A model generated the notes under the pieces. That model was given only the letters and a program-made list of their open reading frames with translations. It was not told the origin of the DNA and ran no database searches. From assembly GCF_009695915.1 (NCBI RefSeq), contig NZ_VUMZ01000002.1, positions 62,001 through 126,000 on the forward strand: a stretch of DNA of 64,000 nucleotides, read 5' to 3'. Below are positions 28,214 to 53,595 of the stretch, in pieces. This DNA is from Hornefia butyriciproducens (GTDB lineage Bacteria; Bacillota; Clostridia; Peptostreptococcales; Anaerovoracaceae). The number at the start of each line of letters is the position of its first letter. Within the stretch, counting starts at the first letter, position 1. Position numbers and translations under genes: made by a program.

Positions 28214-28229
28214 TGGTACGATAGTTGCT
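28214..28229 (+). promoter_or_regulatory. Sigma-54 promoter of the first S66 peptidase gene
   Basis: TGGTACGATAGTTGCT matches the -24/-12 consensus TGGYAYR-N4-TTGCW at every defined base, 65 bases before the start codon. Confidence 0.85.
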
Positions 28230-28293
28230 TTATTTTTGTGCTGTAAAATATTTCTGAAGGCCTGTCGTGGAATAAAGCGCAAAGGAGGGTATG

Positions 28294-29211
28294 ATGAAAT
28301 TTCCGAGGAAGCTTATGAAAGGCGGTACTATCGGGTTGGTGAGCCCAAGCTCGCCGGTGGATCGCCAGAGAGAAGAGGCGTGTATTAAAGTAATTGAAGA
28401 TATGGGATACCGCGTGAAGGCGGCGGATAATATCGCGATGGGAGCGGACGGATATCTGGCCGGACCTGACCGCCGCAGGGCAGACGGGGTGAACGAGATG
28501 TTCAGGGACCCCGAGGTGGATGCGATTTTCTGTGTCCGGGGAGGAGACGGAAGCGCTCGAATTATGGAGTATCTGGACTGGGATGCGATTGCGTCGAATC
28601 CGAAAATTTTCGTCGGCTACAGTGATGTCACCAACCTGCATCTGATGCTGTCGCAGAAATGCGGGATGGTTTCGTTTCATGGCCCCATGGTTTCATCAAA
28701 CATTGTGGATCATTTTGATGATGTAACGAGGAGCAGTCTGTTTGATACGATAAACGCAACAGAGGATTTTTTGTATCGGAATCCTGCGGAGCTTGAGATC
28801 GGAGTACTATGTCCCGGCAAGGCTTCCGGACCGCTTACGGGCGGAAATCTCACACTTCTGGCCGCATCGATCGGAACACCGTATGAAGTGGATACAGAGG
28901 GAAAGATTCTTTTCATTGAAGAGGTACACACCCATCTGAGCAATATGGACCGGCTGATGAGCCAGCTGCGCAACTCAGGGAAACTTGCCCGGGCGAAGGG
29001 AATTCTCCTCGGGCAGTTTACGGATTGTGAGAGTGACGGAGGCGATTATCTCATGTACGATATGTTCTGGGATATGACTGCGGATCTCGATATTCCGGTA
29101 ATGTACGGGATTTCTTCGGGGCACGGATTTCCCATGACCACACTGCCGATCGGAGCACAGTGCAGCATAGACACAGAGGACAGAACCATACGGTTTCATG
29201 TGGAAAGATGA
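28294..29211 (+). CDS. LD-carboxypeptidase, peptidase family S66 (copy 1)
   Basis: A cytoplasmic serine peptidase of the LdcA/MccF family, which cuts the L-centre-D bond between meso-diaminopimelate (mDAP) or Lys and D-Ala in recycled muropeptides. The 305 residues show the N-terminal GTIGLVSPSSPV, the nucleophile Ser 110 in FVGYSDVTN, Glu 209 in ILFIEEV and His 277 in SSGHGFP: a complete Ser-Glu-His triad. I start at the second ATG (28294) because GGAGG is then five bases away. It stands alone behind a sigma-54 promoter; a paralogue lies at 50722. Confidence 0.9.
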   Translation: MKFPRKLMKGGTIGLVSPSSPVDRQREEACIKVIEDMGYRVKAADNIAMGADGYLAGPDRRRADGVNEMFRDPEVDAIFCVRGGDGSARIMEYLDWDAIASNPKIFVGYSDVTNLHLMLSQKCGMVSFHGPMVSSNIVDHFDDVTRSSLFDTINATEDFLYRNPAELEIGVLCPGKASGPLTGGNLTLLAASIGTPYEVDTEGKILFIEEVHTHLSNMDRLMSQLRNSGKLARAKGILLGQFTDCESDGGDYLMYDMFWDMTADLDIPVMYGISSGHGFPMTTLPIGAQCSIDTEDRTIRFHVER

Positions 29212-30198: not shown

Positions 30199-31329
30199 TT
30201 ATTCTGACGGATCATTGATATAGATCCGTTCGGGTCGCGTCCCCAGACTGACCAGAATATCATTTTTGATTGTGCCGGTCAGTTTGGAGGCTTCTTCCGC
30301 GGTCATCGCGCCGTCACTTCCGTCACTGAGTATGATCGCGAGATCCCCGGGCGCAACATCCGGAATGTCGGTGACATCCACGATGCACTGATCCATGCAC
30401 ATGACGCCGATCAGCGGAGCCTTTTCCCCGTGAATGGAGACGTAGCCTTTACCCTGTATACTTCGGAAGAGTCCGTCGACATATCCGAAGGGAAGCGTGG
30501 CGACGATACTGGGACGCTGAGCGCGCCATACATAGTCGTAACTGACGCCTTCGCCGGGCTGCAGGCGATGCAGTTCCGAGACTCTGGTCAGAAAACGGAC
30601 TGCAGGAACTACAGGAAGGTATCCTAGGTGAAAAGAGTGCATTCCGTAAATCAGTGACCCCGGCCGGACCATATTCAGCCGGTATTCGGGGTAGTCTACA
30701 CACGCGATACTGTCAGAGATGTGCTTGTATTGAAAACTCAGTCCGTCCCGCTCCAGGGTGCGCACAAAGTCTGTAAAGCTGTGAAATTGTTTTTCATTCT
30801 CTTCGCGGTTTGTCAGGGCGAGGTGAGAGAAGATACCCTCGATTTCCAGATTCGGCAGCTTCGTCATTCGGAGAATTTCTTTACGGTATGCTTCGCCGGG
30901 AACCTGCCCAAGACGGTGTAGTCCGGTATCAACCTTGAGATGTACCTTGGCAATTGTGTTCTGCTTTTCGGCATATCGGCTGAGCAGCCGGGCCTGATCA
31001 TAGGAAAATATGGTCTGCGTGATATGGTTTTCGATAACATAGTGAAGATACTGATCCGGTGTGTGTCCGAGAATAAATACAGGGTAATCCGGATACACGG
31101 ATCGAAGTTCCATTGCTTCGCTCAACGTGGCGACAGCCAGATATGCGGCACCGGCGTCCATCAGAGTTCTGGCGATCCGAACGGCACCGTGGCCGTATGC
31201 GTCTGCTTTGACCACAGCCATTACAGACACGTCAGGACCGTTCATTTCACGGATCTTCAGAAAGTTGTCATAGAGTTTTTGCAGATCGATTTCGATGATT
31301 GTGTCACGATATGTTCCGGTTGTTTTCAT
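30199..31329 (-). CDS. alr: Alanine racemase
   Basis: A PLP enzyme that interconverts L- and D-alanine. PLP binds Lys 41 in AVVKADAYGHGAV; the second catalytic residue is the Tyr of GVSYDYVW, and MVRPGSLIYG and GVMCMDQCIVDVT are typical. At 376 residues it is full length. It sits among D-Ala-releasing peptidases under a sigma-54 promoter, so I infer a catabolic job (turning released D-Ala into L-Ala); a separate housekeeping alr probably exists outside the window. A weak SD (GGAAGGA) precedes the ATG. Confidence 0.93.
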   Translation of the reverse strand: MKTTGTYRDTIIEIDLQKLYDNFLKIREMNGPDVSVMAVVKADAYGHGAVRIARTLMDAGAAYLAVATLSEAMELRSVYPDYPVFILGHTPDQYLHYVIENHITQTIFSYDQARLLSRYAEKQNTIAKVHLKVDTGLHRLGQVPGEAYRKEILRMTKLPNLEIEGIFSHLALTNREENEKQFHSFTDFVRTLERDGLSFQYKHISDSIACVDYPEYRLNMVRPGSLIYGMHSFHLGYLPVVPAVRFLTRVSELHRLQPGEGVSYDYVWRAQRPSIVATLPFGYVDGLFRSIQGKGYVSIHGEKAPLIGVMCMDQCIVDVTDIPDVAPGDLAIILSDGSDGAMTAEEASKLTGTIKNDILVSLGTRPERIYINDPSE

Positions 31330-31412: not shown

Positions 31413-31428
31413 TGCAATAATTATGCCG
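31413..31428 (-). promoter_or_regulatory. Sigma-54 promoter of the alr - C26 unit
   Basis: On the minus strand CGGCATAATTATTGCA keeps the GG and GC pairs and differs from consensus only at the first T; it lies 84 bases upstream of alr. Confidence 0.7.
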
Positions 31429-31450: not shown

Positions 31451-33079
31451 TCAGGAAGGGTTTCTGTGCAGCCATTCCGCACCGGCGGAAGTGATGGTCG
31501 TCCCTTGCCGCCCCCGGCCGATCGTGATATATCCGTCCTGTTTCAGACCGTCCAGAATATTGCGGAGACGGCCGTCGCTGATGAGGATGTCCCGGTCCCG
31601 CAGCTGATTTAGAATTGAGGTGCGTCCCAGAGCATGGCGCGTATTCTGGCATGCATAAAGGAGGTCGAGGATTTCGGCCCGGATATGACGGTCGCTGTTC
31701 AGATCCACGGACGAAACGTGCCGCAGCCGATGATTTCCGGGTTGAAAAAGTGTCGGAGGAAGTGTTCCGAAGGTAGTAAAATAAATGGACGCGTTTTCCA
31801 GCTCACGGACATTTCCCGGCCAGTCATACTGCTTCAGTGCCTCCTTTTGTCTGGCTCGGATATTCTCGTATTTGCTGCCGAGGAATTCCTGAAACAGTGG
31901 AAGGATGTCTTCCCGGCGGTTTCTGAGCGGCGGAATCCAGATCGGAATTACGTTGAGCCGGTAATACAGGTCGTTGCGGAATGAGCCTGCGCTGACCAGC
32001 GCCTGCAGATCACGATTTGTCGCCGCTATGACGCGAACGTCGACGTCTATGATTTTGTCACCGCCGATTCTCATGATCTGCCGCTCCTGAAGCATACGGA
32101 GAAGACTGGACTGCATTTTAGGCGAAATATCGGCGATTTCATCCAGGAATATCGTTCCGTGATTCGCCTGCTCGAAGAGACCGGTCTTGCCGCGTTTGCC
32201 GGGGCCGGTGAAGGAGTTCGGATCATAACCGAAAAGCTCGCTTTCCAGCAGAGATTCAGGGAGCGCGGAGCAGTTAATGGCAACAAATGGATTAGAACTG
32301 CGGTGTGACGCATTGTGGATAGACTGAGCGAAAAGTTCTTTCCCTGTACCGCTTTCACCGGTCAGCAGAAGGGTATGATTCGTTTCCGCCGCTCTCTCCG
32401 CAGTTTGAATGCACTCGTCCATAACGCGGCTCTGGTGTATGATGTCGGAGAATCTATGTTTGGCAAACAGTCCCTTGTCATGGATTTTTCGTGAGACGGT
32501 GCTTTCGATATCGCGGATTTTCCCGGCGTCGATCATCTTGATATAGTAGCCGATATTTAAATCCCGGAGATAGAGCGGGTAGCGGCTGACAAGGTAATTG
32601 ATCCCCTCGTGGGTGATGACATGTTCTTCGGCGGGAGCGCTTCCTTGAATCTGGCGGACAGCCTCTGCGTCAAAATAATCCTTCAGACTGCTTCTGAGAG
32701 TGGGACTTCCGTGAAGGATCCGGTTGGCGGGTTCGTTGGTAAAGACAATGCGTTCCCGGGAATCGATGGTGATGAAGGCGAAAGGGGAACTGCCCAGAAT
32801 CCGGTCGATGATCTGTGACTTAATATAATTATCCACAAAGTGAGCCTGCATATCATTTTCACAGGTGACGATTTCGCTGAGGTATTTAATCAGCCGCGAC
32901 TCAATCACTTCGTTGTTGAGATGGATGCGGTTGGTCAGCTGAAGCAGAGAATCGAAGCTGATTTCTCTATAACTGCAGTCCAGCACATTTGTGATAAAGG
33001 GCGGAACAAGCTGGCGCTCATGAAAAGTGATAGCGTCAGTGCCGGTGCGGGTGTTATAGATAATCTCGATTTTTTTCAT
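31451..33079 (-). CDS. Sigma-54-dependent activator 1 (PAS, AAA+, non-Fis C-terminus)
   Basis: An enhancer-binding protein of 542 residues. Residues about 85-190 form a PAS-like sensor (FAFITIDSRERIVFTNEPANRIL). The AAA+ domain (about 210-440) has Walker A GESGTGKE, Walker B GTIFLDEI, the sensor/Arg-finger segment VRVIAATNRDL and FRNDLYYRLNVI, and the end YDWPGNVRELEN. The sigma-54-contact loop reads NSFTGP where GAFTGA is usual; Phe-Thr-Gly is kept. The C-terminus has no Fis helix-turn-helix but a winged-helix-like part (LRNILDGLKQDGYITIGRGRQGTTIT). It lies between two sigma-54 units and has its own housekeeping promoter. Confidence 0.9.
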   Translation of the reverse strand: MKKIEIIYNTRTGTDAITFHERQLVPPFITNVLDCSYREISFDSLLQLTNRIHLNNEVIESRLIKYLSEIVTCENDMQAHFVDNYIKSQIIDRILGSSPFAFITIDSRERIVFTNEPANRILHGSPTLRSSLKDYFDAEAVRQIQGSAPAEEHVITHEGINYLVSRYPLYLRDLNIGYYIKMIDAGKIRDIESTVSRKIHDKGLFAKHRFSDIIHQSRVMDECIQTAERAAETNHTLLLTGESGTGKELFAQSIHNASHRSSNPFVAINCSALPESLLESELFGYDPNSFTGPGKRGKTGLFEQANHGTIFLDEIADISPKMQSSLLRMLQERQIMRIGGDKIIDVDVRVIAATNRDLQALVSAGSFRNDLYYRLNVIPIWIPPLRNRREDILPLFQEFLGSKYENIRARQKEALKQYDWPGNVRELENASIYFTTFGTLPPTLFQPGNHRLRHVSSVDLNSDRHIRAEILDLLYACQNTRHALGRTSILNQLRDRDILISDGRLRNILDGLKQDGYITIGRGRQGTTITSAGAEWLHRNPS

Positions 33080-36152: not shown

Positions 36153-36168
36153 TACAATTTTCATGCCA
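36153..36168 (-). promoter_or_regulatory. Possible sigma-54 promoter of the serine hydrolase - MATE unit
   Basis: On the minus strand TGGCATGAAAATTGTA fits the consensus except that the -12 GC is GT. It lies 74 bases before the start codon. A palindrome ATTGT-TGC-ACAAT is found at 36123-36135, near the expected start of transcription. Confidence 0.45.
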
Positions 36169-36384: not shown

Positions 36385-36400
36385 TGGTATGGAACTTGCA
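36385..36400 (+). promoter_or_regulatory. Sigma-54 promoter of the peptide transporter operon
   Basis: TGGTATGGAACTTGCA matches the -24/-12 consensus at every defined base. It is 113 bases upstream of the first permease gene. The rest of 36193-36513 shows no gene. Confidence 0.85.
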
Positions 36401-36441: not shown

Positions 36442-36458
36442 TGTCCTGAAAGCCGGAC
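36442..36458. promoter_or_regulatory. Candidate activator site in the transporter leader
   Basis: TGTCCTGAAAGCCGGAC has the same layout as the two palindromes at 49084 and 49105 (TGTCCT, six bases, AGGA-C/T) with one arm mismatch. It lies downstream of the expected start of transcription, so its role is unsure. Confidence 0.35.
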
Positions 36459-43980: not shown

Positions 43981-45843
43981 ATGGAACAGCAGGAGATCAT
44001 CAGACACATTCGCTTGGTCAGCAGAATGATGGACCAGATCAATTACGGAATCGTTTACGTGGATCGTGAGAAACGGATTCAGGTTTGTAATGACAAAGCA
44101 AAGGGATTCACGGGTATTATGTTTGACGCACCTTTTTCCCACGATGAAGGGGTGATCAGCGAGGGCGACATCGTGATTATCGCGGACAACAGCGTGGGAG
44201 AGGATGACGGCGGTCTATGCAGCGAGGATTTGCAGAGTCTGAATATTCATGACGGCGGAATCAGCCAGGGAGATATTCTCTTGGCGGTTGGTGTATATCG
44301 GAATGCTGAGATCGAGCCGGCATACAAATATGTACACCAGCATCATCTGGCGATGCCGGTGCGGCTACAGGAAAATTATCTGGGGTTCAAAATCTGCGCA
44401 GAGGTGGATACGGAACGCAGGATTACAGCGATTACGGTGAATGACGTGGTTCACGAGCTCGAATTTTTTTCCAGTGTCGGCAACATCGTTGTCGTGGACG
44501 GGAAATATGGGAACATCAAGTTCTTTCAGGCAAAGGGATACAGCGTGCGTAACGAGGATCTCGCAAATATCCTGAGAGGGCAGCCTTTTCAGAGTAAAGG
44601 GGGAACCTCGTATGAAATCGATGTCACGGGACGCCCCTATTTGGATTTCTTTGATGAGTCGCCCCTGACGGAGAAGATGTTCCGCGCCCTGGAAGGAGAA
44701 CCGATCTCTGTCCGCAATACGATACAGGAGATTAATAAGAGACCGTTTATCTGTACGATTCTGACGGCGGAGGAAGAGGAAACCGGACGGATCTTCGGCG
44801 TTATGCTTCTGATTCAGGCGGTGGACAGTCTGGAGGCGCTGGTAGAGGAGAAGAACAGGCTGATTGAGCAACTGGAAAACGTCGGAAACAAGGAAACCCG
44901 GCGTCAGGATTTTCATGTGCCTGAGGAGGCGGTGAGAAGTTTTGTCGGCAACAGTTCCAAGGCAGAGGAGACAAAGTATCTTGCTTATAAAGCTTCCCAG
45001 AACCGGTTTAATACATTGATTACAGGAGAGAGCGGAACTGGGAAGTCGATTCTTGCCCGTGCGATTCACCGGATGGGAATGCCGGAAGCTCCTTTTGTGG
45101 AGGTGAACTGTAATGCAATTGCGCCGTCTCTTTTCGAGAGCGAACTGTTCGGGTATGTCGGAGGAGCCTTTACGGGCGCGCGGAGCGAGGGAAAGAAAGG
45201 GTTCTTTGAGGAGGCTGACGGCGGAACGATTTTTCTGGACGAAATCGGAGATATCCCGCTGACGATTCAGGTCAAGCTTCTGCATGTGCTGCAGAACAAG
45301 ATTATTTACAAGGTGGGATCCTCGAAGCCGGTCAAGGTAGACGTCAGGGTGATCGCCGCCACGAATCAGAATCTGGAAGAGGAGGTTCGCAGAGGGACTT
45401 TCCGTCAGGATCTGTATTACAGAATCAATGTTTTTCAGATTCAGATCCCGCCGCTGAGAGAACGGCAGTCCGATCTGTATCTGCTGATCAATCAGATTCT
45501 GGAGACTACATGCAGGCGTTACGGCCTGCCGCCCAAGAAATTTTCCAGTGACGCCTTGAAAGTGATGTTGGCGTACAACTGGCCGGGCAATGTCCGGGAA
45601 CTGGAGAATGTAGTAGAGCGGGCGGCGATGCTCTGCGATTCGAATATAATCTACAGCGAATACCTGTCTGTCGGCAGCGGGGACACCCCCACCTCCATGA
45701 AGGAACTTCTGGCCAGAGAAGAGGCAAGAATACTCGAGTCCACATTAATTCGCTGTAACGGCGATAAAAACAGGGCGATGAAGGAGCTGGGGATGTCTCG
45801 AAGCGTTTTCTACGACCGTCTGAAGCAATACGGACAGGAATAA
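43981..45843 (+). CDS. Sigma-54-dependent activator 2 (PAS, AAA+, Fis-type HTH)
   Basis: A 620-residue enhancer-binding protein. Residues 1-90 contain a PAS-like start (MMDQINYGIVYVDREKRIQVCNDKAKGF); a second sensor-like part runs to about 300, then a coiled linker (SLEALVEEKNRLIEQLENV). The AAA+ domain has Walker A GESGTGKS, an intact GAFTGA loop (YVGGAFTGARSEG), Walker B GTIFLDEI and AYNWPGNVRELENVVERA. The end (NGDKNRAMKELGMSRSVFYDRLKQYG) is a Fis-like helix-turn-helix. It has the classical layout, unlike activator 1, and lies between the transporter operon and the VanX/M19 promoters. The SD is weak (CGGAAAG). Confidence 0.93.
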   Translation: MEQQEIIRHIRLVSRMMDQINYGIVYVDREKRIQVCNDKAKGFTGIMFDAPFSHDEGVISEGDIVIIADNSVGEDDGGLCSEDLQSLNIHDGGISQGDILLAVGVYRNAEIEPAYKYVHQHHLAMPVRLQENYLGFKICAEVDTERRITAITVNDVVHELEFFSSVGNIVVVDGKYGNIKFFQAKGYSVRNEDLANILRGQPFQSKGGTSYEIDVTGRPYLDFFDESPLTEKMFRALEGEPISVRNTIQEINKRPFICTILTAEEEETGRIFGVMLLIQAVDSLEALVEEKNRLIEQLENVGNKETRRQDFHVPEEAVRSFVGNSSKAEETKYLAYKASQNRFNTLITGESGTGKSILARAIHRMGMPEAPFVEVNCNAIAPSLFESELFGYVGGAFTGARSEGKKGFFEEADGGTIFLDEIGDIPLTIQVKLLHVLQNKIIYKVGSSKPVKVDVRVIAATNQNLEEEVRRGTFRQDLYYRINVFQIQIPPLRERQSDLYLLINQILETTCRRYGLPPKKFSSDALKVMLAYNWPGNVRELENVVERAAMLCDSNIIYSEYLSVGSGDTPTSMKELLAREEARILESTLIRCNGDKNRAMKELGMSRSVFYDRLKQYGQE

Positions 45844-45849
45844 ATCCGG

Positions 45850-46425
45850 TTACTCGTCGAAAGCGTAGTCAGAATAAGGCGCCGGTTCTACAGTATGGTC
45901 ATAAAAATGCCACCATTCCCCCTCGTAAGGGGTGAACCCGCATTGAACCATTACATTTCGTAGGAGCTCGGCGTTCCGACGAGCCTCGCCGTGAGTTTCC
46001 GGACAGTCCAGCCTTGCCCGCGGAGAGAAATCGTCGAATTCGCTGGGCATGACTGCGTTTCTGCCGTCGGGATCAGTCAGCGTCACATCGACGCACTGAC
46101 CGTTCATATGGGAATTCTTGAATTCCTGTATTGTGGACATATCAGGCGGACGGGCTACAAAATTGTTGTCCGGACAGAGATTCCAGAACTTTTGCTGTGC
46201 ACTTACCGGGCGATAAGCGTCCCAGATTTTCAGACCGAAGCCATGGCGTTTCAGCAGATCCTTTGCCTGGATGAGCCTATGTGCCGTAGATTCGTCAACA
46301 TAGCATTCCCTGAAGTCATACACGACTTCGCCGGTGAAATTGTCCGGCGTTGAGTATCGGAGATCGATGAAAAAGTCATCGTCGAGATCCTTCAGCCGAA
46401 CTAGATTTCCGTATTTTCTTATCAT
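45850..46425 (-). CDS. D-Ala-D-Ala dipeptidase, VanX family (M15D)
   Basis: A 191-residue zinc dipeptidase that splits D-Ala-D-Ala. I start at ATG 46425 (GGGAGG ten bases upstream). Zinc ligands and catalytic residues fit: His 106 and Asp 113 in SHMNGQCVDVTL, Glu 170 and His 173 in EGEWWHFYD, and the Arg of AYRP at 72. No vanH, D-Ala-D-Lac ligase or VanRS is nearby, so this is not a vancomycin-resistance cluster; like E. coli DdpX it is more likely to free D-Ala for use. It converges on activator 2 with six bases between stops. Confidence 0.92.
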   Translation of the reverse strand: MIRKYGNLVRLKDLDDDFFIDLRYSTPDNFTGEVVYDFRECYVDESTAHRLIQAKDLLKRHGFGLKIWDAYRPVSAQQKFWNLCPDNNFVARPPDMSTIQEFKNSHMNGQCVDVTLTDPDGRNAVMPSEFDDFSPRARLDCPETHGEARRNAELLRNVMVQCGFTPYEGEWWHFYDHTVEPAPYSDYAFDE

Positions 46426-46454
46426 GATACTGATACCTCCCTGCCCGTATATCA

Positions 46455-46470
46455 TGCAAGGAGCATGCCG
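46455..46470 (-). promoter_or_regulatory. Sigma-54 promoter of the VanX-type gene
   Basis: On the minus strand CGGCATGCTCCTTGCA keeps the invariant GG and GC pairs; only the first T differs. It is 30 bases from the start codon and one base from the divergent promoter. Confidence 0.7.
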
Positions 46471-46471
46471 C

Positions 46472-46487
46472 TGGCACGGACTTTGCT
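46472..46487 (+). promoter_or_regulatory. Sigma-54 promoter of the M19 dipeptidase unit
   Basis: TGGCACGGACTTTGCT is a perfect -24/-12 consensus, 49 bases upstream of the start codon. Confidence 0.9.
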
Positions 46488-46536
46488 TTATATATCTCAT
46501 ATACAAAGAAATATCATCGAGGAGGGACACATAGAT

Positions 46537-47499
46537 ATGGACACGAGAGAAATGAAATTACTGGACATGCATTGCGACACGTTAATTGAATGCTGGCGCC
46601 ATGATGATCGGACGATGCGTCATGGACCGGGCCATCTGAGTCTGGATCTTATGCTGCAGAATCACGGAATGGCTCAATTCTTCGCAATTTATCTGTCGCG
46701 TATTGAGATGCAGACGATGGAGCCTTATGAGATATTTCAGAAGGTGTACGATAACTATCGTATGGAAATGAGCAGGAACACAGATGTGATCCGCAGCGCC
46801 TTCAGCGCGGAAGATATTGAAAAGAATGCCTCGGAAGGCTTCCTGTCCGCTTTCCTGACTATTGAGGACGGCGTTTTCATCGGAGACCATATGGAACGCC
46901 TCCGGGAAGTGTATGACAAAGGCGTGCGTCTGATCACGCTGATCTGGGGATTTCCGAACACCGTGGGATATCCCTGCAGCGATGATCCGGAGGAAAATGC
47001 CAGAGGGCTTACTGAATTCGGAATGCAGGTGATAGAGGAAATGAACCGGATCGGGCTTATTATCGACGTTTCTCATATGTCGGAGGGAGGCTTCTACGAT
47101 GTGGCGAAATACAGTAAAAAGCCGTTTATGGCAACGCATTCCTGCGCGAAGGCTCTGTGTGGGCACAAAAGAAATCTGACCGATGATCAGCTCAGAGTAA
47201 TCGGCGAAACCGGGAGCGTTGTCGGCGTGAATTTTGAGTCTTCTTTCCTGAAAGACGGGTCGAGTTATGCGACAGTAGAACAGATTATGCGGCATCTGGA
47301 TTACATGGTGAACAAAGCGGGCATCGATCATGTAGGGTTCGGTTCGGATTTCGACGGAATCGACAGCGCCGGGGAACTGAAGGATTACTCAGGATACAGC
47401 CGGGTTCTTGCGGAAATGGAGAAAAAATACACTGATGATGAGATTGACAAGCTGACTCATCTGAATGTACTGGCGACGATGAGAAGCATCATCGGATAG
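46537..47499 (+). CDS. Membrane-dipeptidase family (M19) zinc dipeptidase
   Basis: A cytoplasmic bacterial member of the renal-dipeptidase family, 320 residues, acting on dipeptides including those with a C-terminal D-residue. The binuclear site is visible: His 12 and Asp 14 in LDMHCDTLIE, Glu in FLTIEDGVF, His in IDVSHMS and in MATHSCAKALCGHKRN, and Asp in HVGFGSDFDG. I start at ATG 46537 because GGAGGG is ten bases upstream; earlier ATGs fall inside the sigma-54 promoter. Followed by a small membrane protein gene and a terminator. Confidence 0.92.
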   Translation: MDTREMKLLDMHCDTLIECWRHDDRTMRHGPGHLSLDLMLQNHGMAQFFAIYLSRIEMQTMEPYEIFQKVYDNYRMEMSRNTDVIRSAFSAEDIEKNASEGFLSAFLTIEDGVFIGDHMERLREVYDKGVRLITLIWGFPNTVGYPCSDDPEENARGLTEFGMQVIEEMNRIGLIIDVSHMSEGGFYDVAKYSKKPFMATHSCAKALCGHKRNLTDDQLRVIGETGSVVGVNFESSFLKDGSSYATVEQIMRHLDYMVNKAGIDHVGFGSDFDGIDSAGELKDYSGYSRVLAEMEKKYTDDEIDKLTHLNVLATMRSIIG

Positions 47500-48350: not shown

Positions 48351-48950
48351 TCAGTGATTCGACATCAGAACGATAACGGTATACAGCGGGGTGCGGCAGT
48401 TCAGGATTATGCAGATCGCCAGGAATCCGTAAACGATTCCCAGAATGTTGTGGATCTTCCCGTATCCGGGCATCACTTTATATGTCTTTGTTATATGAGC
48501 TCCCTGACTTGACAGATATCGAAGAAACTTGTCAAAAGCTACAACCTCGATCACGCCGCCGCGGAAGAAGGGAATATAAAAGCAGGCCTGTTTTTTGTCT
48601 GTGACCGGACCGCGATACAGCCAGGCACCTCTGGGATCGCAGACAACGTTAGAAATGTCTTCCAGTGAAACGCTGCGCTCTCTGCGCAGCAGACCGTTCC
48701 GATAGGTCAGTGTGCTTCTGGTGTAGGTCAGATGGAAGAAGCGGTGCTGAAAGAACAGGCATCCCAGGCACAAGTAGACAAGAAGATATATTCCGAAGGT
48801 GAGAGGATAGTTGAAGCGGTCGTAATATTTATCGATATGGAAGACCATGATCTGGATGATAACGATCAGATAGAGCGTTGCCAGCAGCCCGATCGTGATA
48901 AACAGAAATTGTCTCGCCAGTGTGATGAATGTATAGTCGATTTTTCTCAT
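48351..48950 (-). CDS. Membrane protein of unknown function (PH-like domain between TM helices)
   Basis: A 199-residue protein. TM helices are near residues 12-33 and 48-68, then a soluble strand-rich part (FHLTYTRSTLTYRNGLLRRERSVSLEDISNVVCDPRGAWLYRG), typical of bacterial PH (YdbS/YdbT-like) domains, and a last TM helix (IHNILGIVYGFLAICIILNC). AGAGG precedes the ATG. First gene of a two-gene unit; its architecture is related to that of the next gene. Linked to the scavenging genes only through its promoter. Confidence 0.7.
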   Translation of the reverse strand: MRKIDYTFITLARQFLFITIGLLATLYLIVIIQIMVFHIDKYYDRFNYPLTFGIYLLVYLCLGCLFFQHRFFHLTYTRSTLTYRNGLLRRERSVSLEDISNVVCDPRGAWLYRGPVTDKKQACFYIPFFRGGVIEVVAFDKFLRYLSSQGAHITKTYKVMPGYGKIHNILGIVYGFLAICIILNCRTPLYTVIVLMSNH

Positions 48951-49020: not shown

Positions 49021-49036
49021 TGCAAATAATATACCA
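49021..49036 (-). promoter_or_regulatory. Sigma-54 promoter of the two PH-like membrane protein genes
   Basis: On the minus strand TGGTATATTATTTGCA matches the consensus at every defined base, 70 bases before the start codon at 48950. Confidence 0.8.
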
Positions 49037-49083: not shown

Positions 49084-49121
49084 TGTCCTGAAAACAGGAT
49101 TATGTGTCCTAAATGTAGGAC
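49084..49121. promoter_or_regulatory. Pair of palindromic candidate activator sites
   Basis: TGTCCTGAAAACAGGAT at 49084 and TGTCCTAAATGTAGGAC at 49105 share TGTCCT, six bases, AGGA. They are 21 bases apart (two helical turns), between two divergent sigma-54 promoters, which is the usual place for enhancer sites. Confidence 0.65.
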
Positions 49122-49221: not shown

Positions 49222-49237
49222 TGGCATGGAATTTGCG
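49222..49237 (+). promoter_or_regulatory. Sigma-54 promoter of the SpmA/SpmB - S66 - DAP decarboxylase operon
   Basis: TGGCATGGAATTTGCG fits the consensus except for the last base; GG and GC are intact. It is 145 bases before the first gene. Confidence 0.8.
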
Positions 49238-53413: not shown

Positions 53414-53595
53414 CCGTGAACAAAAATATTCGGGCGAGTTTCCAGAAACCGCCCGTAACCTCTCCCGGAACCGTCCGGATTTCAGGATGAAGGATATCAG
53501 AATCCGGACACCGGTGCATTTTCTTTGTCGCCGCGGGAAAGGAATAATCGCAAAATTTGAAGTATTTCAACCGGTGTCTTCTTGTGACGGCAACT

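Follow-up and report, generated by a model that had tools for sequence, protein, structure and literature searches.

Divergent sigma-54 promoters are already known, usually with an activator site in between. The Caulobacter flaN/flbG genes, reportedly described by Mullin and Newton in 1993, are said to be divergent sigma-54 units with downstream ftr elements; like the locus considered here, they reportedly combine divergent units with activator sites downstream of a promoter, whereas their genes are flagellar and their enhancers lie close to the promoters. The enhancer distance in rocG-rocABC of Bacillus subtilis is reportedly about 1.5 kb, as against 2.6 kb here. In rocG-rocABC one enhancer is shared, acting on one gene from downstream and on the following gene from upstream (PMC4941409). 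This arrangement resembles the present one as a Bacillota catabolic cluster with one site for two genes (here a candidate site); unlike the pair here, its promoters are not head-to-head. The orp1/orp2 operons of Desulfovibrio vulgaris are also divergent sigma-54 operons, turned on jointly by one cluster-encoded activator (here a candidate), but they have integration host factor (IHF) and activator sites between the promoters, whereas here the promoters are 1 bp apart with no activator site near (PMC3897727). A survey of 39 activator groups in Clostridiales describes one-component activators with a Fis-type HTH, clustered targets, and multiple enhancer sites, all of which have likenesses here; in contrast to this locus, the enhancer sites lie mostly 100-250 bp upstream of the promoter, and Table 1 of that survey includes no vanX, M19, or diaminopimelate regulon (PMC6615313). 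Sigma-54 control of gamma-proteobacterial D-Ala-D-Ala dipeptidase genes has been noted (PMC12316311).

The window, meaning the whole stretch of 64,000 nucleotides analysed here, comes from Hornefia butyriciproducens and contains two head-to-head sigma-54 sites between a VanX-type gene and an M19 gene. The features of this region are as follows.

43981 to 45843, plus strand: gene for a sigma-54 enhancer-binding protein, AAA+ with GAFTGA (PF00158) and a Fis-type HTH_8 (PF02954)
45850 to 46425, minus strand: VanX-type D-Ala-D-Ala dipeptidase gene (Peptidase M15; Pfam PF01427, E 7.5e-36)
46455 to 46470, minus strand: sigma-54 promoter of the vanX-type gene, CGGCATG-CTCC-TTGCA, with the -24 GG at 46469-46468 and the -12 GC at 46457-46456
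46472 to 46487, plus strand: sigma-54 promoter of the M19 gene, TGGCACG-GACT-TTGCT, a perfect consensus
46537 to 47499, plus strand: M19 membrane-dipeptidase family gene (Pfam PF01244, E 1.3e-88)

A single base, 46471, separates the minus and plus sites. The earlier note had described two sigma-54 promoters one base apart, with abutting -24 elements and outer -12 elements, and this geometry is borne out, the coordinates 46455-46487 being exact. With both strands scored, each site has GG-N10-GC within the context TGGCAYR-N4-TTGCW; the minus site deviates from the consensus at its first base (C for T), and the scores are 19.0 for the plus site and 15.5 for the minus site. The predicted transcription starts are consistent with the gene positions, and a good ribosome site precedes each gene: for M19, a start near 46498, a 39-nt leader, AGGAGG, and the ATG at 46537; for vanX, a start near 46444, a 19-nt leader, GGGAGG, and the ATG at 46425. 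The vanX-type product falls short of the equivalog cut-offs for VanX and PRK10178. A search of the DNA between the two genes returned no sigma-70-like promoter for either vanX or M19. The genome encodes RpoN (PF04552, E 8.4e-63, at C1:138451), an activator gene lies beside vanX, and orthologous promoters precede M19 and vanX in relatives; the reading of both good -24/-12 sites as true sigma-54 promoters is thus supported by sequence evidence.

The head-to-head pair is genuine and not a product of chance. In 60 simulated windows of 64 kb with the dinucleotide content of the real window, no head-to-head pair with a gap of 0-41 bp appeared. Sites scoring at least 15 number 5 in the window against 0.5 on average in the simulations, and the single site scoring at least 18.9 compares with an average of 0.017. 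Strict sigma-54 sites number 22 genome-wide, and those at 46455-46487 form the only abutting pair.

The M19 protein was searched in 297 genomes of the family, and the upstream regions were then scanned for sigma-54 sites. A head-to-head pair lies upstream of the M19 gene in 17 family loci, with gaps of 1, 2, 2, 2, 9, 11, 13, 14, 21, 25, 25, 26, 28, 33, 39, 40, and 41 bp, the 2-bp entries including two near-identical sequences (G084 and G282). A strict pair pattern with a gap of 0-12 bp matches in 5 of the 297 family genomes, and its reversed control in none; at least four of the five matches immediately precede M19, whereas the one in G282 stands before a further M19-like reading frame matched at 50% in L101. 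Outside the family, the strict pattern has one other match in 398 genomes of the phylum, a terminator-like hairpin in G593 that was rejected as a divergent pair. In this distant phylum member (L170 1502-1540), a perfect sigma-54 promoter is one arm of a perfect hairpin, which resembles a terminator for a LevR-type activator gene and is immediately upstream of PTS genes.

The gene on the minus side varies. In most loci it is an M20 amidohydrolase gene followed by alanine racemase, and in two it is alanine racemase alone. Apart from the window, a vanX partner at a clear pair occurs at a single locus, in another genus (G264; L085/L163); in G237 and G109, vanX is divergent from M19 and a complete sigma-54 pair is absent. 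The same-genus relative G013 has a gap of 40 bp and an M20 partner. In the window genome, alanine racemase is at 30199-31329, behind a separate sigma-54 site at 31413; M20 has its best match on the same contig, beyond the window. The partner genes (vanX, M20, and alanine racemase) belong to one pathway. The plus site begins with T in all 17 loci and the minus site with C in 10 of them; therefore, the M19 side is usually the better site. By comparison of these loci, the divergent architecture is conserved, and the symmetry, the spacing, and the dipeptidase partner are not.

In the clusters mapped, the usual order begins with the activator, alanine racemase and M20, the promoter pair, and M19; vanX and a small gene follow, then a promoter, a tandem enhancer, a second promoter, and the gate-gate-S66-lysA genes. 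The 3' ends of vanX and of the activator gene at 43981-45843 are 7 bp apart, and orthologues of this activator are linked to M19 in relatives. The genome has 13 strong activator genes; judged by gene neighborhood, which also ties it to the enhancer-like motif described below, the 43981-45843 product is the most likely candidate for an activator of both promoters. No Pfam domain was found in the first 300 residues of this product. A second activator (31451-33079) has a different C-terminus, with a weak winged-helix match and no Fis-type HTH, and adjoins the alanine racemase gene with its own site (31413-31428). In clusters with this second activator type (L155, L161), TTAAACCGTTTAA-like repeats are found near the gate promoter.

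The remaining predicted promoters and enhancer-like sites in the window that bear on the control of this cluster are the following.

36385 to 36400, plus strand: predicted sigma-54 promoter of the peptide ABC transporter operon
36443 to 36458, no strand assigned: enhancer-like site GTCCTGAAAGCCGGAC, score 21.1
49021 to 49036, minus strand: predicted sigma-54 promoter (score 13.4) for the gene at 48351-48950, found at the corresponding place in relatives
49085 to 49121, no strand assigned: tandem palindromic enhancer-like sites GTCCTGAAAACAGGAT and GTCCTAAATGTAGGAC, copies at 49085 and 49106, 21 bp apart
49222 to 49237, plus strand: predicted sigma-54 promoter (score 15.1) for the gate-gate-S66-lysA-rid operon, likewise at the corresponding place in relatives
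53473 to 53488, no strand assigned: enhancer-like site GTCCGGATTTCAGGAT; a weak sigma-54 site (53596) and an S11 peptidase gene lie downstream

The enhancer-like motif is a palindrome with the consensus GTCCTGAATTCAGGAC; both in the window and in relatives it lies between genes, ahead of the gate operon, and it was derived from these same gene clusters. It is often duplicated, with copies 21 bp apart, and is about 2-5 kb from the promoter pair in most clusters. The four best motif scores in the window are at 49085, 49106, 36443, and 53473, and the tandem site at 49085-49121 is the nearest strong candidate enhancer to the pair, at 2.6 kb. A strict tandem pattern occurs in 9 of 297 family genomes and its control in 3 genomes; six of the nine tandem matches share a contig with M19 or lie no more than about 3.2 kb from it. 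In loci L151 and L158, the promoter pair is present and the strong enhancer near the gate operon is absent. Natural sigma-54 enhancer sites have been reported as far as 3 kb away on the upstream side and 1.5 kb on the downstream side (PMC7408454); the candidate here, about 2.5 kb downstream of the M19 start, is beyond the downstream distance quoted for known cases.

Several other occurrences of these elements were observed. The site at 36443 falls within the 5' leader that follows the predicted opp promoter (36385-36400), about 275 bp from a divergent site at 36153. A high-scoring palindrome copy elsewhere in the genome (GTCCTGAATATCGGAC; L105 1501-1516, G000 C1:175626) has no clear sigma-54 site within 1.5 kb. 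Loci L164 and L165 have a second back-to-back sigma-54 pair, with gaps of 14 and 13 bp, about 3.15-3.2 kb from the M19 start; it is flanked by a small gene and the gate operon, and about 0.6 kb separates it from the tandem enhancer.

How the two promoters share this DNA depends on the space that each polymerase occupies. The sigma-54 closed complex has been modelled as reaching about -33 on the DNA (PMC5505868). If the first T of each site is numbered -26, complexes would collide at gaps below about 14 bp. At 46455-46487 the predicted overlap of the two closed complexes is about 13 bp from this boundary, so that, as the earlier note proposed, two holoenzymes are unlikely to be bound together in this genome. 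The further proposal of a switch between the two dipeptidases fares less well. In a reciprocal switch, the abutting promoters would have evolved to limit the cell to one dipeptidase at any moment, the choice being made by different activators or by polymerase supply. The 1-bp gap, the modelled overlap (PMC5505868), and the 2-bp gaps in three more loci are what such a device might look like, but the gap would be too short for both complexes in only 7 of the 17 loci, the window included. In the other 10 homologous pairs it is 14-41 bp, reaching 40 bp within the same genus (G013, with M20), and both polymerases could bind; exclusion is thus not a conserved property. The gaps show no helical phasing (Rayleigh p ~0.29; 17 loci), the partner alternates among vanX, M20, and alanine racemase and is mostly M20/alanine racemase, both sides belong to one pathway, and the cluster has one candidate activator. 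The conserved spacing and partner expected of a dedicated two-gene switch are not found in relatives. A reciprocal switch is accordingly improbable, and a dedicated vanX/M19 switch is judged unlikely from these comparisons; because partners and spacings vary beside M19, the pair is better read as a shared control module of one regulon. That the M19 promoter alone is used, the minus site being a weak relic or a chance match, is quite improbable: the minus site does score lower (15.5 vs 19.0) and starts with C rather than T, as do 10 of the 17 minus sites, yet minus-side sites are retained in 17 loci whatever the partner, strong sigma-54 sites precede other vanX genes (16.2-17.9 directly upstream of the orthologues in L019, L020, L021, and L085), and no sigma-70-like alternative was found upstream of vanX.

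The 33-bp segment was also called a near-palindrome, and it does have the same form on both strands, as would a structural hairpin or an operator bound by a dimeric regulator. No special symmetry accompanies this form: 20 of 32 positions are symmetric, which is the plain expectation for two sigma-54 sites, and the minus and plus sites are identical at 10 of 16 positions. Mean identity is nearly equal for sites of the same locus (11.4/16) and of different loci (11.2/16), so the shared consensus accounts for all the symmetry. In close relatives the symmetry is lost as the gap changes, and the divergent architecture itself is retained. The palindrome was therefore ruled out as an operator, its symmetry matching the consensus expectation, and a symmetry-based function is highly improbable. 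Activation from nearby deserves more weight, although it too is rather unlikely: the promoters would be real, but driven by a local enhancer within the vanX or M19 coding sequence or by activator from solution. An enhancer at the usual 100-250 bp (PMC6615313) would fall inside the two genes, and there is one weak motif match inside vanX, at 46123; it scores only 7.6, however, against 19-21 at the strong sites. No enhancer-like score of at least 15 occurs within 500 bp of any of 16 promoter pairs, and GTCC-N8-GGAC, TGT-N10/11/12-ACA, and AAACCGTTT-like motifs are not enriched within 300 bp of pairs. The TTAAACCGTTTAA-like repeat, taken from two clusters with the other activator type, has no match near the pair. 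An orp-like activator site between the promoters is absent, the spacer being 1 bp here and the gaps of 1-41 bp in relatives holding no motif.

No enhancer fits within the pair or close to it, so looping from the remote tandem sites is the most likely route of activation. The explanation given somewhat better than even chances is a co-regulated divergent sigma-54 pair with a distant shared enhancer and with polymerase competition in this genome. The pair would sit in a regulon for using cell-wall (D-Ala, diaminopimelate) peptides, and one enhancer-binding protein, probably the 43981-45843 product, would activate both directions by looping over 2.6 kb from 49085-49121. The same tandem sites would also serve the divergent promoters at 49021 and 49222; it is likely that the M19 pair, too, is served over 2-5 kb by the enhancer lying between the promoters on the gate side. 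With the predicted overlap, one direction would be occupied at any instant, and the stronger M19 site would be favored, so that output would be divided stochastically and with a bias rather than by a regulated switch. A broader proposal is tentative: a conserved head-to-head module lacking its own enhancer, for which the tandem enhancer 2-5 kb away may act as a hub for at least four promoters, with abutting -24 elements making direction stochastic and sequence-biased and with a partner exchangeable in evolution.

The vanX-type and M19 gene products probably degrade cell-wall peptides. Other predicted sigma-54-controlled or operon-adjacent genes encode the peptide transporter, an M55 D-aminopeptidase, a diaminopimelate epimerase-like protein, S66 carboxypeptidases, diaminopimelate decarboxylase, alanine racemase, and an S11 peptidase; a sigma-54 site, TGGTACGATAGTTGCT, is found at window positions 28214-28229, upstream of a second S66 LD-carboxypeptidase gene (28291-29211). 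As predicted, this gene set fits the uptake and breakdown of cell-wall peptides, and a sigma-54 regulon for D-Ala and diaminopimelate peptides has apparently not been described before. Across this bacterial family, pairs too close to hold an activator site lie beside one gene as spacing and partner drift. Their gaps, from 1 to 41 bp, form a natural series for how two polymerases dependent on a looping activator share DNA, and the pair points to a long-range bacterial enhancer hub.
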